In this document: positions 9,484 through 63,211 of the stretch, piece after piece
Layout of the letters: each line of letters starts with the position of its first letter
How positions within the stretch are numbered: the first letter of the stretch is position 1
Position numbers and translations under genes: made by a program
The notes under the pieces: generated by a model
Database searches by the model: none
What the model was told of the DNA's origin: nothing
Seen by the model: only the letters and a program-made list of their open reading frames with translations
Assembly: GCA_963169645.1 (NCBI GenBank)
Contig: CAUJCO010000008.1
Location: 62,001 to 126,000, forward strand
Reading direction: 5' to 3'
DNA: 64,000 bases
DNA from: Bacteroidota bacterium
Lineage (GTDB): Bacteria > Bacteroidota > Bacteroidia > Chitinophagales > JADIYW01

Positions 9484-10131
9484 ATGAAAAATCTAGTAAA
9501 ATTAAGTTTAGTATTAGCAATTGTATTTTTTACAGCTAATATTTTCGCAAGTGAAATTGGCATGTCAACTTCTAATATGAAGTTATACAGCCCAATGGCA
9601 AAAAGTAAAAGCAGTTCAAGTGGTGGCATCCAGAAAGGAGACATGCAGTTGGATGTAAGTTTTAACTTAGGTTCACATTCAGGTTTCGGGAAAAAGAGTG
9701 CATTTGGTTTTGGTGGTGTAGGTGTTGGTTTTTCACCGGGCGTTACTATTAATTTTGATTATGCTGTACATCCTTATGCAAGTGTAGGCGGATATATAGG
9801 ATTTGGTGGAGGCGGGAAATTTGCTGGTACCAAAATCAAGGCTGCTTATGTAGGAGTAGGTGCTAGAGGTGTTTTTCATATTTATCAGTTAATAGCAGAT
9901 AAGGCAAACACAAAAGTAGATCCGGGAAAATTGGATTTCTATTTTCCATTCCATGTTGGTGCAACTATTATTATTCCTGGTAAAAAATCAGGTGGTAAAG
10001 CTACTGCAGGAGCAACAGTTGGTGGTGGCTTAGGTGTTCGTTATTACTTTACAAATAATGTTGGTATAATGAGCGAAGTAGGTTGGTTAGAGTTGGCTTT
10101 ATTTAAAGTTGGAGCTGCATTTAAATTCTAA
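9484..10131 (+). CDS. Exported glycine-rich outer-membrane beta-barrel protein
   Basis: 215 residues with a cleavable signal peptide (MKNLVKLSLVLAIVFFTANIFA). The mature part is rich in glycine, serine and alternating hydrophobic residues (GFGGVGVGFSPGVTINFDYA, PYASVGGYIGFGGGG) and ends VGAAFKF with a C-terminal phenylalanine, as expected for a small outer-membrane barrel of about eight strands. No enzymatic motif is seen and the role is unknown. It has its own promoter and a strong terminator directly after it. Confidence 0.7.
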   Translation: MKNLVKLSLVLAIVFFTANIFASEIGMSTSNMKLYSPMAKSKSSSSGGIQKGDMQLDVSFNLGSHSGFGKKSAFGFGGVGVGFSPGVTINFDYAVHPYASVGGYIGFGGGGKFAGTKIKAAYVGVGARGVFHIYQLIADKANTKVDPGKLDFYFPFHVGATIIIPGKKSGGKATAGATVGGGLGVRYYFTNNVGIMSEVGWLELALFKVGAAFKF

Positions 10132-10202: not shown

Positions 10203-11795
10203 TTAAGCAATATCTTTGTCTAAAATATCTACCATGGAGCGTTCAGCAATGCCTGCAATTGTTAATGCAGGATTGGCACAACAAGAAAATCCCGGCATCA
10301 TAGAACCATCTAAACAATATAGATTGTTATATCCTTTTAATCTTCCATAATTATCGCTGGCTAAGCCTAAAACTGCTCCACCTAAAGGATGATAACAAAA
10401 ATCATCACCAAGTGCTTTTCCTCCAAAATACATTGTCGATTCTAAAATGCCACCATTTGCAGCATTAAGTTGATTGACGAAATGCAACATTGCTTTTCTG
10501 GAAATGTCCATTTGTGCATGATCAAAATGCAAATCAACATTATCTGTAGTTGGATTGTAAGTAAAATGTCCTCTTTCCGGATTTTTGGTAATGGCAAGTG
10601 CCAACAATTGTCGCAATTCCATGCCAATAGGGAATGGTGCTTGCTCTGCTAAAAGCGGTGTAATTGGATTGTCTAAGTTGCCATAAGCCGTTACAGGAAC
10701 TGTACATTGTTGAGCCCCTGTATCTTGAAGCAACCAAGTACGCATTGCCATAATATTTCCATTATTTCCCCAATGTTTTCCTACTTCATCATTCAAATTA
10801 GGCAAACCACCGTTGAATTTTGATTTTAATAAAATTTGCATAGTGCCTACTACACCTGCATTAATAAATAAATGCGTACAAGTATATTTTTTCTCGTATT
10901 CCAAATCACCTTGTTCGGTAATTTTATGTACGGTTACTTCATATCTGTTGTCTGGTAATTGTTTAACGCTATCTACTTTGTGTAATGTATGGATGGTAAC
11001 ATTTCCGGTTGATTTGGCAGCAGGTATATAATTTCTATCTAAACTATTTTTGAAACCATTATTACCGCCGTAAAGTAATTCACCATTGGTTGCTGATTTT
11101 CTTTCAGTACCGTTTATTTCACCTTCTACTACATCAAAGTCAACGCCAACATTCAACATGATTTTTTCCATGCCGGCTTTTTCGCAATGTTGTAAACCTA
11201 CTCTTGCAAATCGATAATATTCTGAATTGGTTACTGCATCCGGAGCAGTACTAAAATTAAGAACACTTTTTACTTTCGGATACCATTTGTTCTCCATTTC
11301 ACTGTAATCTATAAAAGGGAAAAACTCATTCCAAAGGGATGGTTGAGCGTACGGTAACATAGCACCATATACAACGGAGCCACCACCTAAGCAAGTTCCT
11401 CTGTAAATTCTCATATAAGATGTTGGAAACTCCACTCTATCTAATACGCCTACGTATTGTGGTATATCAAATTGTATGGTAGTTACCGGTAGAACTGTTT
11501 TCTTTTTCAACCAAGTAGAACGACCATCCGGTTTTAACATGTTACAGAAAGTATCACCGCTTTCGCTCACTTTATATTCTTTTCCCATTTCGAAAAGTGT
11601 TGTTTTAATTCCGGCTTGTCCTAAACGTAAGGCAGCAACAGAACCACCAAAGCCGGAACCAATAACTATTGCTTCCGCATCAGAATCGGATGGGATAATA
11701 GGCTCTTTTTTACAACTTGTGAGAGGTAAGCTACTGGCAACACCAGCTAATGCTGAAAGTTTGACAAACTTTCTTCTAGAAAGTGATTTCTTCAT
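10203..11795 (-). CDS. GMC-family FAD oxidoreductase, cholesterol-oxidase-like, Tat-exported lipoprotein
   Basis: 530 residues. The N-terminus has a twin-arginine signal (SRRKFVKLSALAG) followed by a lipobox-like LTSC, so the folded flavoprotein is probably exported and lipid-anchored. The FAD-binding motif is AIVIGSGFGGSVAALRL (~residues 41-57), then GTCLGGGSVVYGAM. C-terminal active-site blocks are FCYHPLGGAVLG (His) and SCCANPALTIAGIAE (Asn), the arrangement in cholesterol oxidase and related GMC enzymes. It oxidises an alcohol, likely of a sterol or hopanoid type, but the substrate is inferred only from family. The promoter lacks a -33 element and instead carries two palindromes of Crp/Fnr type upstream. 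Confidence 0.85.
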   Translation of the reverse strand: MKKSLSRRKFVKLSALAGVASSLPLTSCKKEPIIPSDSDAEAIVIGSGFGGSVAALRLGQAGIKTTLFEMGKEYKVSESGDTFCNMLKPDGRSTWLKKKTVLPVTTIQFDIPQYVGVLDRVEFPTSYMRIYRGTCLGGGSVVYGAMLPYAQPSLWNEFFPFIDYSEMENKWYPKVKSVLNFSTAPDAVTNSEYYRFARVGLQHCEKAGMEKIMLNVGVDFDVVEGEINGTERKSATNGELLYGGNNGFKNSLDRNYIPAAKSTGNVTIHTLHKVDSVKQLPDNRYEVTVHKITEQGDLEYEKKYTCTHLFINAGVVGTMQILLKSKFNGGLPNLNDEVGKHWGNNGNIMAMRTWLLQDTGAQQCTVPVTAYGNLDNPITPLLAEQAPFPIGMELRQLLALAITKNPERGHFTYNPTTDNVDLHFDHAQMDISRKAMLHFVNQLNAANGGILESTMYFGGKALGDDFCYHPLGGAVLGLASDNYGRLKGYNNLYCLDGSMMPGFSCCANPALTIAGIAERSMVDILDKDIA

Positions 11796-11831
11796 GCTCT
11801 TTTATTTGGTTAATAATTGTTTACGTCTAAC

Positions 11832-11839
11832 CAAAAATA
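11832..11839 (-). promoter_or_regulatory. -7 promoter box of the GMC oxidoreductase gene
   Basis: Minus strand TATTTTTG, exact TAnnTTTG, 36 bp before the ATG at 11795. No TTTG lies 17-23 bp upstream; the palindrome centred at 11868.5 occupies that region instead, which suggests activator dependence. Confidence 0.6.
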
Positions 11840-11861
11840 AGGAGAAATGCAATTTTTTCTG

Positions 11862-11875
11862 ATGATTTAAATCAT
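11862..11875. promoter_or_regulatory. Perfect palindrome, Fnr-type operator candidate (proximal)
   Basis: ATGATTTAAATCAT is a perfect 14-bp palindrome with the core TGAT-N4-ATCA, as in Fnr boxes. Its centre is 33 bp upstream of the centre of the GMC -7 box, i.e. about position -40, the place for a class II activator. Confidence 0.6.
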
Positions 11876-11885
11876 GAAATATTTT

Positions 11886-11903
11886 TTTTGACAAAAGTCA
11901 AAA
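11886..11903. promoter_or_regulatory. Perfect inverted repeat, Crp/Fnr-type operator candidate (distal)
   Basis: TTTTGAC-AAAA-GTCAAAA is a perfect 7+4+7 inverted repeat with core TGAC-N4-GTCA. Its centre lies 26 bp beyond the proximal palindrome. It overlaps the stop codon of the upstream helicase gene. Confidence 0.5.
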
Positions 11904-14900
11904 CTTGGAAATGTGTTCCAAAATTTTCTGAATTTCTGCATCCTTATCTTTCCACCAATGAAGTGCCCAAATGTGATACGTGTGTATGTTATACTGTTGT
12001 AAGATATCCTGTTGATGTAGTTTCTTGCGATAGGCTACTTCGGAATGATACATTTCAGAATTTTCAAAATCGAAAACGAATGCAATTTTCTCATTTTGTA
12101 TCCAAGCTAAATCGAAATGAAAGCCTCCAAATGTTTGATTTTGTTGTAAGGAATCTCCCAAATGTTTTTTTAATTGTTCATAAATATATTGTCGAAATAT
12201 ATCATCTGGATTGCTTTTTAGATGTTGTATGTTGGATGTTTTTTGCTTCGTTACTAATGAAGCAAATAAAGCTTGGATTTGTAGTTTATTATTTTCTGCA
12301 CACGATTTTACAAAAGCCAAATACGCATAAAAGATTCCTTTTCCGGTGTTGCCTTTTTCTTGCAAATCGGTTTCATATTTCATGAAAATAGTTTCCGGAA
12401 TCGAAGTGTATACATGTAGTGCTTGTTTGGCTCGCGTAATTATTACATTTAAAAGTTGATATCCTTTCTCTTGATTAATTGGACCAAATGCTTGTCTAAA
12501 TTTTCCATTTTCATCTGCACCAAAGGTTGTAGAAAGCAACATGATATCTCGTTCATCACCTTGAATGTTTTCTAAATTTTTCACAAATAACCCTTTGGAT
12601 AAAAGAGCCTGAAGATGTTCATTTTTATACTTGTCAGCGTATGCTGCTTCATATAATTTATCCAATATTAAATCGCGTTGATAAATATTAAATGTAGCAA
12701 TGCCAATGCTTGGTAATTCATTATTTTCTGGTTGTAGCGTATAAATATATTGTACGATTTCTTCTGCTTCTTTTACATTTGTTCCATTGGTATAAATACC
12801 ATTTACGGCATTGTAATAAATAGCTTGGTAAGCTTGTTTTTGTGGCATAGGTATCAATCGAGATTGATAGAATGCATGGTTGGAAAAGCCAATTAAATCG
12901 GGATGTTTGGAGCGGTAGTGAAAATCTAAATACGTACTTTTAAATTGAGTATCATCCGCATATTCTAATAAAGATTTACTTTCCGCTAAGAAATCATCAT
13001 TGTTGTTTTCTGCTTCTTCATCGCTATAAAAAATTACTTCATTTCCAAAAAAATTGCTTGGTGGCATTTGATGTCTGTCGCCGGAAATTACTTTTATTTT
13101 TCCTCGTATTAATGACGAATAGGTGTCTTCTAATCTCAATTGACTTGCTTCATCTAAAATAATAAAATCAAAAATATCTTTTTGTAATGGTAAAATGGAA
13201 GAACTGACACTTGGGTTCACCATTACCACCGGAAACATATTTGTAAAGAATTCAAAATCTTGATGGATTATTTTTCGAAGTGAATTTTTGGAAGCAAATT
13301 GTTTGTTTTTTCGTTGATTATATAAATACTTTAAAGCTGTTATGTCGCTTGATTTTACGGCAGTTTTAGCCGCGTCCTGCCAGATAAAGCGTATTCTTTC
13401 ACTTAGTTTTTGTTTCAATGCAATATCAGTATTTTTTAGATCTTCATACAGCTGAATCGTATCTTCTTTCAGTCCATTTTGTAAACAAATTTTTAATATA
13501 ACTTGATTGATATAGTACGTTTCTACAATTTTGGCTGCGTTTAAATTATCGGTATCAAGAACAGCTTGCAGTAAAATTTTTGTTTTTTCATCTTGCTGTA
13601 AAACAAATTTTTGATACATGAAAAAAGCTTCAAAATGCTGCGCATTTTCTTTTATTGGAAGTGTGTTGTTTTGTATTTTTTGCAATGCAATTTTAAGTTC
13701 ACTTATGTCGTTGATGCTTAAAGTATCCGTAAATTCTATTGTTTCCGTGAATATCTTATCTTGTAAAAGGTTGTTTTTTATTTGTATATAAGATAGTAAA
13801 GTTGCTTTTTGTTGTTCAATAATTTGTTTGTAATAAGCTGAGAAGAATGCCATTATTCGCACCAAATATTTTCGCCAAGTGCGAAGTTGCGTGTAGTTTT
13901 TTTGAAATGTAGAAGTGTTTTGTTCAATTTTTTGAAGCAATGATGCACTCGCATTGTGATGTGTGATAACGGTATGGAATAACGCATCACTATCGGTAGT
14001 TTCCTGAATTTTATTTGTTTGTATTTTTTCAAAAAGTTGCTTGTTGTCAGGCATATTTTGATGTAATGGAATAGCAGTTTGTATTGCTTTTTGCAATCCA
14101 ACAAATTCATTAAAATCAAACTGAAAAAGATGGTTTCGAATAATTTTATTCAGCTCGTTAGCCTTCGCTAAGGTAATTGAATCTTCGTTTAAAATTAAGC
14201 TTCTGTGTAGTAACTCAGTCCACGTATTATCGCCAAAAACAAGTTGTGTACTTAAATTTATCCGGTGATTGATTTCTTCTTGTAAGGTTAAGAATTTGGC
14301 ACGCAAAGTTTCGTATTCATTCTCTTTAAAACGAAAATTTAATTGCTCTATATTTTCAATGATATCCCGAACATTTTCTACAATGCTCTTTCTATCTGTA
14401 TAAACGTCTTCAATTAAAACACAAAGATGATGTAGATTTTCTTTCTTTAAATTATTATACAACACTTCCATTGCCGTTCGCTTTTCGCATACTACCAATA
14501 CTTTTTGTTTGTTGAGTAATGCTTGCGTGATAACTGCCGTCAGTGATTGGCTTTTTCCGGTTCCCGGCGGACCTTGAATGATGATGTTGTTGGAATTTTT
14601 TAATTGAAATAAAACATTTTCCTGACTTGGATCTAAAGTAATAGGTGTTAATATTTCACCATCAAAAGTAGAAAATTCTGTTTCATTTGAAGATGTTGTT
14701 AGGTTGTTTTTCTCTAACAATTCCATGTCTTTAATGATTGATTGTTTTTGTACTTTGTACAATCCAAAAACTCCACTCCAACGAACCCAAGGTGTTTCTT
14801 TAGTGATGGATTCAATTGTTTCTTTATTGGTGCAAGGTAAAATAGTAGCAATGTTTTCTTCTATAGAAAATGGCGTATTGAGTTTGTCCATCAATGTTTT

Positions 14901-15494
14901 ACAAAACGCTTTTAATTGCAGCTCATTTACAAATTCCTCCTCTAATAAAACATCCAAATCTTGTGTAGTAATTTTTTCATTGCTTTCAACGTGTGCTTGC
15001 AAAAGTTCGTTAAAAATCAATGGATGTTCATCGTCTCTGCTGATGGTCCAAGTGTTATTCTTTTGTGCATCTTTTTCAATTTTTAAATACCAAATTAATA
15101 AAGGTGCTTTTAGAATTCTATCCCGATTTATTGGGTCTCTTTTTATCAGTAGTGGATAGCCGAAACCGAATGCATGATAGCCATGCTCTGCATAGCCTTC
15201 TTTATCTTGATAATCTAAATGATTGAGTTTTTTGATTAACTTCTGTATGATTTTTTTCTCTTCCGCATTTTTATGTTGCAAGATAGTAGGTGGGATGGTA
15301 ATAGAAAATTTGAAATTTCGTTTCGTTAATAAATTTTCTAAAAATTGATGATGCAAACTTTGTTCAATATTTATTAAATCATAAATATCTAAACGAGCAA
15401 AATTTCCGGGTATGGCATTAAGATGTATGCTTCGGGCATCGCCTTGTTTTAGCCGAATTAAAATTTTTTCTAAAAAAGTGGATGTTGTCATCAA
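11898..15494 (-). CDS. Large superfamily I helicase with C-terminal Vsr/MTES_1575-like nuclease-fold domain
   Basis: 1198 residues. The first ~285 form an accessory region (LNAIPGNFARLDIYDL, later FGFGYPLLIKRD and KAPLLIWYLKIEKD) found in a class of AAA-type helicases. Walker A is IIIQGPPGTGKSQSLTAV at ~304-321; a long helical insert follows; Walker B is FIILDEASQLRLEDTYS; then GDRHQMPPSNFFGN and, near the end, QGDERDIMLLSTTFG and NVIITRAKQALHVYTS, the superfamily I C-terminal motifs. The last ~100 residues resemble Vsr/MTES_1575 nucleases (FHFDLAWI, MYHSEVAYRKK, HIWALHWWKD). The E-x-D pair usual just before the MYH motif is not evident, so cleavage activity is uncertain. Related helicase-nuclease proteins include defence genes. 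No partner gene is adjacent. Confidence 0.75.
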   Translation of the reverse strand: MMTTSTFLEKILIRLKQGDARSIHLNAIPGNFARLDIYDLINIEQSLHHQFLENLLTKRNFKFSITIPPTILQHKNAEEKKIIQKLIKKLNHLDYQDKEGYAEHGYHAFGFGYPLLIKRDPINRDRILKAPLLIWYLKIEKDAQKNNTWTISRDDEHPLIFNELLQAHVESNEKITTQDLDVLLEEEFVNELQLKAFCKTLMDKLNTPFSIEENIATILPCTNKETIESITKETPWVRWSGVFGLYKVQKQSIIKDMELLEKNNLTTSSNETEFSTFDGEILTPITLDPSQENVLFQLKNSNNIIIQGPPGTGKSQSLTAVITQALLNKQKVLVVCEKRTAMEVLYNNLKKENLHHLCVLIEDVYTDRKSIVENVRDIIENIEQLNFRFKENEYETLRAKFLTLQEEINHRINLSTQLVFGDNTWTELLHRSLILNEDSITLAKANELNKIIRNHLFQFDFNEFVGLQKAIQTAIPLHQNMPDNKQLFEKIQTNKIQETTDSDALFHTVITHHNASASLLQKIEQNTSTFQKNYTQLRTWRKYLVRIMAFFSAYYKQIIEQQKATLLSYIQIKNNLLQDKIFTETIEFTDTLSINDISELKIALQKIQNNTLPIKENAQHFEAFFMYQKFVLQQDEKTKILLQAVLDTDNLNAAKIVETYYINQVILKICLQNGLKEDTIQLYEDLKNTDIALKQKLSERIRFIWQDAAKTAVKSSDITALKYLYNQRKNKQFASKNSLRKIIHQDFEFFTNMFPVVMVNPSVSSSILPLQKDIFDFIILDEASQLRLEDTYSSLIRGKIKVISGDRHQMPPSNFFGNEVIFYSDEEAENNNDDFLAESKSLLEYADDTQFKSTYLDFHYRSKHPDLIGFSNHAFYQSRLIPMPQKQAYQAIYYNAVNGIYTNGTNVKEAEEIVQYIYTLQPENNELPSIGIATFNIYQRDLILDKLYEAAYADKYKNEHLQALLSKGLFVKNLENIQGDERDIMLLSTTFGADENGKFRQAFGPINQEKGYQLLNVIITRAKQALHVYTSIPETIFMKYETDLQEKGNTGKGIFYAYLAFVKSCAENNKLQIQALFASLVTKQKTSNIQHLKSNPDDIFRQYIYEQLKKHLGDSLQQNQTFGGFHFDLAWIQNEKIAFVFDFENSEMYHSEVAYRKKLHQQDILQQYNIHTYHIWALHWWKDKDAEIQKILEHISKF

Positions 15495-61857: not shown

Positions 61858-62706
61858 TTAAAATTCAACCTCTAAAAACAAACTGCTGCTTTCTGTAGTA
61901 TCCGAAATGGCTTCTCCTTTTATAACCGTATCCGTTGCATCTTTTACAATAAAATTTAGTTTCCAATAACCGGACATTGATAAAGAAAGTTGACCGTGAT
62001 ATAAATTATCAATTGCACTAAATGTAGGCTGTACATTGTTTGGGCTGGAGTGGTTGTCCATGCTTGGCATGCGCGGGTCGAACAAGATAGTAGCATCTGT
62101 TACTGCTGGGAAAGATAGCATGCTTTCTCGTTTAAATAAGGCTACTGAAAAATCATTTATTCCAATAAATGGAACTTGTGGGTTGGCTAATGCCAAAATA
62201 TATTTTTTGCCATCATTTCCTGTAAACGATACTACTTTTTTTCGGGTATCTGTCGCTGATTTTACTGCAATAGTATCAGTTAATACAGCTGTATCTCCGT
62301 TGCGCATTACATTAACTGTTAATGTCCATTTTTCTACATCGTTTTCCGGCATTTGAAATACGATATAGCCTTTATACAGTGTATTTTTTCCGCTTACTTT
62401 TGATATATTAGATTTGGGTCCGGAATGCGACATTGAAATCATGTGCATCATTGGCATCCATGTTAAATTGGCATCTGTTATATAATTTCCGGTAGATTTA
62501 TTTTTAATTCGTAAATAAATATCATTATATCCAACTGTTAGGTTTCCGGTTTGAGTTGTATATAGTTCAATACTTGAGCTATCATTACTCATTTCTTGTA
62601 ATAAAGTAAGTCCTTCTGTTTCATCAATGGGTTTTATGGTTTCGTTTTTGCAAGCGATAGTAAATATGGATAGTATAGCAATAGCTATTAGAAAAAATTG
62701 TTTCAT
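61858..62706 (-). CDS. Methionine-rich exported lipoprotein with two YtkA/FixH-like domains
   Basis: 282 residues with lipoprotein signal (FLIAIAILSIFTIACKN). The chain has two similar beta domains (~45-150 and ~160-280), each with a strand like WKLNFIVKD or WTLTVNV. The first has MPMMHMISMSHSGPKSN, a Met/His-rich patch suited to copper binding; the second has DPRMPSMDNHSSPN in the same place. YtkA/FixH-like domains occur in copper-handling proteins. A role as copper carrier for the receptor is inferred. No promoter box is seen in the 72 bp before its start. Confidence 0.7.
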   Translation of the reverse strand: MKQFFLIAIAILSIFTIACKNETIKPIDETEGLTLLQEMSNDSSSIELYTTQTGNLTVGYNDIYLRIKNKSTGNYITDANLTWMPMMHMISMSHSGPKSNISKVSGKNTLYKGYIVFQMPENDVEKWTLTVNVMRNGDTAVLTDTIAVKSATDTRKKVVSFTGNDGKKYILALANPQVPFIGINDFSVALFKRESMLSFPAVTDATILFDPRMPSMDNHSSPNNVQPTFSAIDNLYHGQLSLSMSGYWKLNFIVKDATDTVIKGEAISDTTESSSLFLEVEF

Positions 62707-62778: not shown

Positions 62779-63162
62779 TTATATTAAATTAGTGAAACAA
62801 GGCGGATGGAATGTTACCATGGAGAATTGAAAAAGGTAATGATGTTTATAGTTGGCATATTTCTTATCGGAAGAAACGTTTGCCATTGCTGTGAAATTAA
62901 ATGGAGAAATTTCTTGTGAAAATAGAATAGAAACTTCTTCTGTTGTTGTTGTTTTTAAGGGTGATTTTTCGTTGTTTTCTTTTGCAACATCCGATAATTG
63001 TTTTTGTAAATGACATTTACCATTACAATCTTTTTCCGGATTGTCTTTGTTGATACACAATACATTTTTGATATAATCATAATTAATGAAATATTCTATA
63101 ATAGGTACTATTGGCCTTGCTAATAGTATCGTAGAGAATATGACAATTATGAAAAATTTCAT
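62779..63162 (-). CDS. Small exported cysteine- and histidine-containing protein
   Basis: 127 residues with a hydrophobic N-terminus (MKFFIIVIFSTILLARPI). A C-x-N-x4-C-x3-C-H block (CINKDNPEKDCNGKCHLQKQL) follows, and the tail has TFHPPCFTNLI. The cysteines could bind metal. I do not recognise the family. It precedes the lipoprotein and copper receptor on the same strand, with 72 bp to the lipoprotein. The promoter has a Crp/Fnr-like palindrome in place of a -33 box. Confidence 0.6.
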   Translation of the reverse strand: MKFFIIVIFSTILLARPIVPIIEYFINYDYIKNVLCINKDNPEKDCNGKCHLQKQLSDVAKENNEKSPLKTTTTEEVSILFSQEISPFNFTAMANVSSDKKYANYKHHYLFQFSMVTFHPPCFTNLI

Positions 63163-63166
63163 GCAT

Positions 63167-63174
63167 CAAAATTA
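63167..63174 (-). promoter_or_regulatory. -7 promoter box of the Cys-rich protein gene
   Basis: Minus strand TAATTTTG, exact TAnnTTTG, four bases before ATG 63162. No -33 TTTG at 17-23 bp; the palindrome centred at 63203.5 takes that place. Confidence 0.55.
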
Positions 63175-63195
63175 AATTCTAAAATAACTTTTTGC

Positions 63196-63211
63196 TATGA
63201 CAAATGTCATA
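63196..63211. promoter_or_regulatory. Perfect inverted repeat, Crp/Fnr-type operator candidate
   Basis: TATGACA-AA-TGTCATA, core TGAC-N4-GTCA. Its centre is 33 bp upstream of the centre of the -7 box, the same distance as in the GMC oxidoreductase promoter. Confidence 0.6.

Follow-up and report, generated by a model that had tools for sequence, protein, structure and literature searches.

The 64,000-nucleotide stretch of DNA analysed here (the window) carries on its minus strand, at 10203-11795, a gene for a GMC oxidoreductase of 530 residues, the start of which is twin-arginine and lipobox-like (MKKSLSRRKFVKLSALAGVASSLPLTSC; signal-peptide reading by eye). The gene is convergent with 9484-10131 and is, for that reason, probably transcribed singly. 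On the same strand, immediately upstream (11898-15494), lies a DUF4011/AAA helicase gene with a weak match to the MTES_1575 nuclease; it resembles the anti-phage proteins ProA and Hhe at scores far under their cut-offs, and a similar helicase C-terminus was seen by eye upstream of GMC orthologues in the genus.

Between the two genes lies a -7 box of the TAnnTTTG type, TATTTTTG (11832-11839, minus strand, centre 11835.5; CAAAAATA on the plus strand). The initial annotation had described a Crp/Fnr-like palindrome centred 33 bp above this box, a second one 26 bp further and a promoter devoid of the -33 TTTG, and each of these statements agrees exactly with the sequence. The proximal palindrome, ATGATTTAAATCAT, occupies 11862-11875 (centre 11868.5) and the distal one, TTTTGACAAAAGTCAAAA, occupies 11886-11903 (centre 11894.5), overlapping the stop codon of the helicase gene, while TTTG is absent 19 bp above the box. 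Read on the minus strand (sequence 11796-11903), the order is thus TTTTGAC-TTTT-GTCAAAA, ATGATTTAAATCAT, TATTTTTG and the GMC start at 11795. Scans of 11700-12100 for promoters and for terminators gave no matches, the promoter scan being one for sigma-70 promoters and not applicable here. The leader following the box (GGTTAGACGTAAACAATTA, window 11796-11831) is mostly kept in orthologues that have no palindromes, and ACGTAAACAA words similar to it also occur downstream of the box at two other loci (L044 and L147).

The available part of a transcription-start map of Flavobacterium psychrophilum places TAnnTTTG at -12 to -5 (PMC9723704), which puts the box centre at -8.5 and the centre of the proximal palindrome at -41.5; GMC transcription would then start near 11827. 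In the accessible text of PMC5957442, -41.5 is the class II position of E. coli, and the proximal site is a TGA-N6-TCA palindrome predicted to lie precisely there. The suggestion that both palindromes stand at activator positions, near -41 for a class II activator, consequently holds for the proximal site, but not for the distal one, which is predicted at -67.5, out of phase with the usual class I positions by about half a helical turn. Other tandem sites in this data set, above the FNR-adjacent operon, the NorC-like gene and the porin gene (three sites), are 22-23 bp apart, so the 26 bp between the GMC palindromes are unusual, by roughly half a turn. In E. coli the TA of the -10 element lies 30 bp from the activator centre, and the TA of TAnnTTTG also lies 30 bp from it.

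The TGAY-N4-RTCA core alone occurs at chance level (6 in the window, 5.04 expected from shuffles), and the information resides in its distance from the box. A search of the own genome (G000; 2.70 Mb, 14 contigs) for this core together with TAnnTTTG at gaps of 15-30 bp found 17 pairs as against 1 in a reversed control, and the gap was exactly 23 bp, i.e. 33 bp from centre to centre, in 12 of the 17 (binomial 1.6e-11 against 1 in 16). The remaining five matches are spread over 15 gap classes, from which about 0.3 of the 12 would be expected by chance. When only gap 23 was allowed and the core was loosened to TGA-N6-TCA, 14 matches were obtained and none in the control; 12 of the 14 carry the inner Y...R letters, where about 1 in 4 is expected. 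This gap is found in 36 of 76 matches from seven further members of the genus and, among the matches listed, in 14 of 57 from five further family or order genomes and in 42 of 137 from 18 order or class genomes (besides G000) of a 296-genome phylum draw; these statistics treat sites as independent, and orthologous sites in relatives are dependent counts. For one genome, G014, the matches listed are 15 of its 21. The peak is absent in some of the genomes, order or class genomes among them (G013, 0/9; G015, 0/10; G054, 0/13; G305, 0/7). In the own genome and in the genus, the position is shared by many promoters beyond chance.

The expectation that palindromes 33 bp from TAnnTTTG boxes would mark a coherent set of genes is borne out by the 12 own sites, which precede respiratory, NO-defence, haem and Fe-S genes. 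One of them follows the gene of an FNR-like regulator (Reg1, below) and directly precedes genes for a RIC-like protein and a copper P-type ATPase. Others stand before CcmC (behind CcmB), a ScdA/hemerythrin RIC protein, a class V aminotransferase taken to be a cysteine desulfurase, a radical SAM protein that looks by eye like HemN, a porin of the alginate-export type, a secreted protein of unknown kind and the GMC oxidoreductase itself. A cytochrome c protein and its membrane partner behind a further site were read by eye as NorCB; a profile search of this pair gave cytochrome c only for the first and no match for the partner. Two sites have no reading frame behind them and are treated below as small-RNA candidates. 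The last of the 12 is a second class II arrangement within the window (63167-63209, minus strand), comprising TGACATTTGTCA (63198-63209), 23 bp and the box TAATTTTG (63167-63174), behind which lie an unknown protein of 127 residues (62779-63162, minus strand) as first gene and a YtkA-like protein (61858-62706, minus strand); in G008 (L158) a small protein similar by eye to the former also stands behind a gap-23 site.

Across 40 stretches from eight genomes, own genome included in the counts, the same spacing recurs before HemN-like genes in five genomes, before CcmC, the NorC-like gene, the FNR-adjacent operon, the porin and a CcoN-like oxidase (by eye) in three each, and before RIC and GMC in two each. 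Two further arrangements were seen in passing. A palindrome above nuoA stands at gap 25, not 23 (L041, G000:C6:182794-182838), with look-alikes at gap 25 in G003, G004 and G005 and at gap 24 in G006, and is possibly a weaker or differently faced activator site; upstream of the porin gene, three TGAY-N4-RTCA sites lie exactly 22 bp apart (G000:C9:96410-96465; L010, L011).

Three Crp-type HTH proteins were found in the own genome. Reg1 (L058, G000:C6:230966-231670) has Fnr and FnrL as its best models, both below cut-off; it scores 115.3 bits against the curated NCBIfam Fnr cut-off of 228, and we regard it as FNR-like and claim no membership in the curated Fnr subfamily. Its cysteines, C10-x2-C13-x8-C22 together with C112, are kept in six of six orthologues (own included), and alignment with an FNR structure shows both the N-terminal motif and the central cysteine. 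We take these four to be the Fe-S ligand positions of FNR, the third being displaced by three residues towards the C-terminus relative to E. coli FNR. Reg3 (L060, G000:C12:236370-236918), a possibly DNR/NnrR-like paralogue about 2 kb from the RIC gene site, has no N-terminal cysteine motif. Both Reg1 and Reg3 have E at the position of CRP residue 181 and no R at 180, and Reg2 has V at 181. According to the available part of PMC1274295, E at 181 without R at 180 is tied to a TTGA-type half-site, and on this account both Reg1 and Reg3 carry the residue expected for reading TGA. Reg1 orthologues (77-92 %) are present in G003-G007 and in neither G001 nor G002; Reg3 stands next to RIC in G000 and G005, and no close Reg3-like match was found in G003.

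Upstream of 11 GMC orthologues, eight perfect palindromes were found in six genomes, while shuffles gave a mean of 0.22 and none of 500 reached eight. Both palindromes are kept in G005, at 59 and 33 bp from the box; the proximal one is identical to the own copy in 14 of 14 bases, whereas the spacer to the box agrees in only 8 of 22. In the distal one both half-sites have changed together, from TGAC..GTCA to TGAT..ATCA, at the same spacing, and a paired half-site change also separates the palindromes of G011 and G009. G004 has one palindrome, at 60 bp. Three orthologues of another genus (about 48-50 % identical) have a palindrome exactly 82 bp from the box (about -90.5), and two of their boxes read TAnnTTTA. 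No palindrome was found above GMC in G002, G003, G006, G007 and G010 (five of the 11), even though G003 has a GMC protein 87 % identical to the own one as well as Reg1. The link of GMC to a regulator of this kind thus appears to be old but not universal, its position differing between genera.

Considering the spacing peak, the coherent targets, the conservation in orthologues, the features of Reg1 and the predicted position at -41.5, we consider it probable that GMC is transcribed from an activator-dependent promoter and belongs to a low-oxygen regulon of FNR type, most likely with Reg1 as the activator. The initial annotation had proposed that the oxidoreductase is switched on by an anaerobic or nitrosative-stress regulator; position, gene set and the FNR-like regulator lend support to this proposal, with activation, binding, the oxygen signal and the choice of Reg1 over Reg3 being what we infer from sequence. 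A Crp/Fnr dimer, most likely the putative Fe-S protein Reg1, would bind TGAT-N4-ATCA at -41.5, where it would stand in for the missing -33 element and contact RNA polymerase as in E. coli class II promoters, possibly assisted by a second dimer at -67.5. A fall in oxygen would then turn on production of the exported GMC oxidoreductase, along with the copper ATPase encoded next to the regulator, NO reductase, the functions of cytochrome c assembly, Fe-S repair and HemN-type haem synthesis, and a pair of small RNAs.

The strongest competitor, which we consider unlikely yet worth keeping in view, holds that the GMC promoter is mainly under Reg3, a regulator of NO type, the signal being NO and not the loss of oxygen. 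Reg3 shares E181 with Reg1 and is encoded close to the RIC gene site; the two genomes with both palindromes, G000 and G005, carry it beside RIC, and G003 has neither a Reg3-like match nor a GMC site. The distal half-site TGAC..GTCA, moreover, resembles the HcpR motif TTGACnnnnGTCAA given in the available part of PMC1274295. However, two genomes are too few for such a correlation, G003 keeps several gap-23 sites with Reg1 and no Reg3-like match, and the site sequences form no two classes (attempts to sort them into FNR and NO groups, whether on the half-site or on the flanking base, failed).

It is much less probable that the palindromes are read by another TGA-N6-TCA protein or serve as a repression operator. 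The core is short, and G001, which has no Reg1 orthologue, has 5 of its 10 sites at gap 23, some of them (L150-L152) before small heat-shock-like and other stress-type proteins, as judged by eye; this suggests another Crp-family activator using the same position, and hence that related proteins can use it. Against this reading, only three Crp-type HTH proteins were found in the own genome, Reg2 among them with its V at 181, and a position at -41.5 that replaces the -33 element favours activation over repression.

Lower still do we place the idea that the helicase gene ends in a terminator hairpin formed by the distal palindrome, which was considered and rejected: the palindrome can fold as RNA and stands at a gene end, but two of the seven pairs in its AT-rich arms are G-C, the arms are followed by A and not by U, the terminator scan found none there, and in G005 a palindrome with the paired change stands equally far from the proximal site. 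Chance in AT-rich DNA, for which only the shuffle-like frequency of the core in the window speaks, is contradicted by the spacing peak, the conservation in orthologues and the gene set, and is scarcely credible.

The FNR-type regulon, our preferred reading, would also include RNA. The two own gap-23 sites that drive no protein (L046, G000:C7:259660-259780; L051, G000:C10:74800-74877) are each followed by about 60-75 nt with GAAACAUAAAAA and no reading frame, and then by a hairpin with a U run behind it. The site-and-box pattern, used by itself, brought up eight more copies in G003-G007, and a divergent additional copy occurs in G002 (L149). The combined pattern, searched in 396 genomes of the order, yields exactly ten copies, all at gap 23, none elsewhere and none in the control; the ten lie in the six genomes with Reg1 and in neither genus genome without it. 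In the hairpin, both sides vary in 7 of the 9 pairs, and pairing holds in 96.8 % of cells, a value that none of 500 shuffles reached, the calculation being based on the seven RNAs with gap-free hairpins and omitting three with other hairpin lengths. No Rfam match at gathering level was obtained for these candidates. As a possible mRNA-binding segment, TTTTTATGTTTC showed no enrichment when searched with one mismatch (79+88 places vs 101+117 in the control). Of its 13 exact places, two are the FNR-driven RNAs themselves and several belong to a second RNA family or to degenerate repeats of that family, while another (L171) coincides with the start codon of a lipoprotein-like gene of 259 residues. 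Neither RNA seed has a near match (up to two mismatches) in the window, and no link to the GMC mRNA was seen.

This second family is marked by GGGTTTTTATGTTTC, for which a search allowing one mismatch counted 67 places in eight genus genomes (forward plus reverse) vs 9 in the control. In many of 30 loci read it lies just below a -7 box, at a distance of a few bases, with a small hairpin and then a terminator after it; the others comprise degenerate repeats, the FNR-driven RNAs read in reverse, and start codons of lipoprotein-like genes (L238, L257). One form, starting with GGGUUUUUAUGUUUCUAGACUUUA, is nearly letter-identical over about 68 nt in all eight genus genomes (L246, G000:C7:56951-56965, minus strand; relatives L232-L237, L247 and L251) and has an inverted repeat, GTTAAACAAC...GTTGTTTAAC, over its promoter; another form has the promoter TTTG-N19-TAnnTTTG. 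No Rfam match was found for 12 loci of this family. Several degenerate GGGTTTTTATGTTTCT copies, partly tandem-like between genes, lie within 4 kb at G000:C10:18844-22546, and similar clusters occur in G003 (C125) and G005 (C22).

The FNR-driven candidates are complementary to the 5' end of the second family over about 9-17 bases. Duplex energies of the ten against two GGG RNAs of the own genome, with 300 shuffles each, were mixed: against type A, 0, 0, 0 and 3 shuffles were at least as good for four RNAs and 14 for own_a, and 22, 51, 88, 153 and 192 for the other five. Pairing over the full length is thus convincing in roughly half of the candidates. An FNR-controlled sponge would be the simplest reading of such complementary RNA candidates. 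A wider proposal, which we put forward tentatively and would not yet favour, is that in this genus an FNR-type regulator drives small RNAs whose unpaired UAGAAACAUAAAAAUCC sponges the nearly invariant second family at its GGGUUUUUAUGUUUCUA start, so that loss of O2 frees the targets of the latter, and that the -41.5 rule is phylum-wide. If true, this would amount to an oxygen-controlled RNA-against-RNA switch in Bacteroidota, with Crp/Fnr regulons readable from sequence across the phylum by one -41.5 rule.

Taken alone, the GMC promoter is of a known kind; the added worth lies in a spacing rule that relatives share and in two RNA families complementary to each other. A spacing rule exact to a single base would permit oxygen- or NO-controlled promoters to be listed from sequence in a phylum with a core promoter unlike that of E. 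coli, and would place an exported GMC enzyme in the low-oxygen programme, while the two RNA families make post-transcriptional oxygen control in Bacteroidota directly testable. In the accessible parts of the open literature we found no statement of a class II rule, an FNR regulon or an FNR-dependent RNA for Bacteroidota. As far as the available portions of these reports extend, CRP/FNR homologues of Bacteroidota are assigned to MalR-like carbon sensing (PMC8510549), cbb3 oxidase and haem genes are more highly expressed under low oxygen, and neither Crp nor Fnr occurs in the text (PMC9723704), and the term 'bacteroid' does not occur (PMC12531629).

Among known systems, the class II CRP/FNR promoters of E. 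coli, in the available part of PMC5957442, share the palindrome at -41.5 overlapping the upstream promoter element; they differ in that the box here is TAnnTTTG, with the -33 TTTG in 0 of 52 sites examined, and in that the position 5' of TGA may hold bases other than T. With the FNR and FnrL sensors Reg1 shares the four cysteines, the best models and the regulon content, and departs from them in scoring under the curated cut-offs and in its C-x2-C-x8-C spacing, its cluster being putative. The HcpR/DNR/NnrR networks, in the part of PMC1274295 at hand, have in common with the present set the TGAY-type palindromes and the NO-reductase-like and RIC targets; the HcpR2 motif given there for most genomes, Bacteroides included, is GTAACnnnnGTTAC, and Reg3, having E181, differs. 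SnoA and HcpR of Bacteroides thetaiotaomicron likewise tie a small RNA to a Crp/Fnr regulator in Bacteroidota, but SnoA is, in the available text, antisense to the hcp promoter and HcpR-independent (PMC13370916), whereas the candidates described here stand under the palindrome and are complementary to another RNA. FnrS of enterobacteria is an FNR-dependent small RNA with no reading frame and a terminator; the candidates here, as ten sequences in six genomes, share with it a class II FNR-type site, the lack of a reading frame and a terminator, and have a conserved unpaired segment, and unlike FnrS they are without an Rfam match at gathering level.
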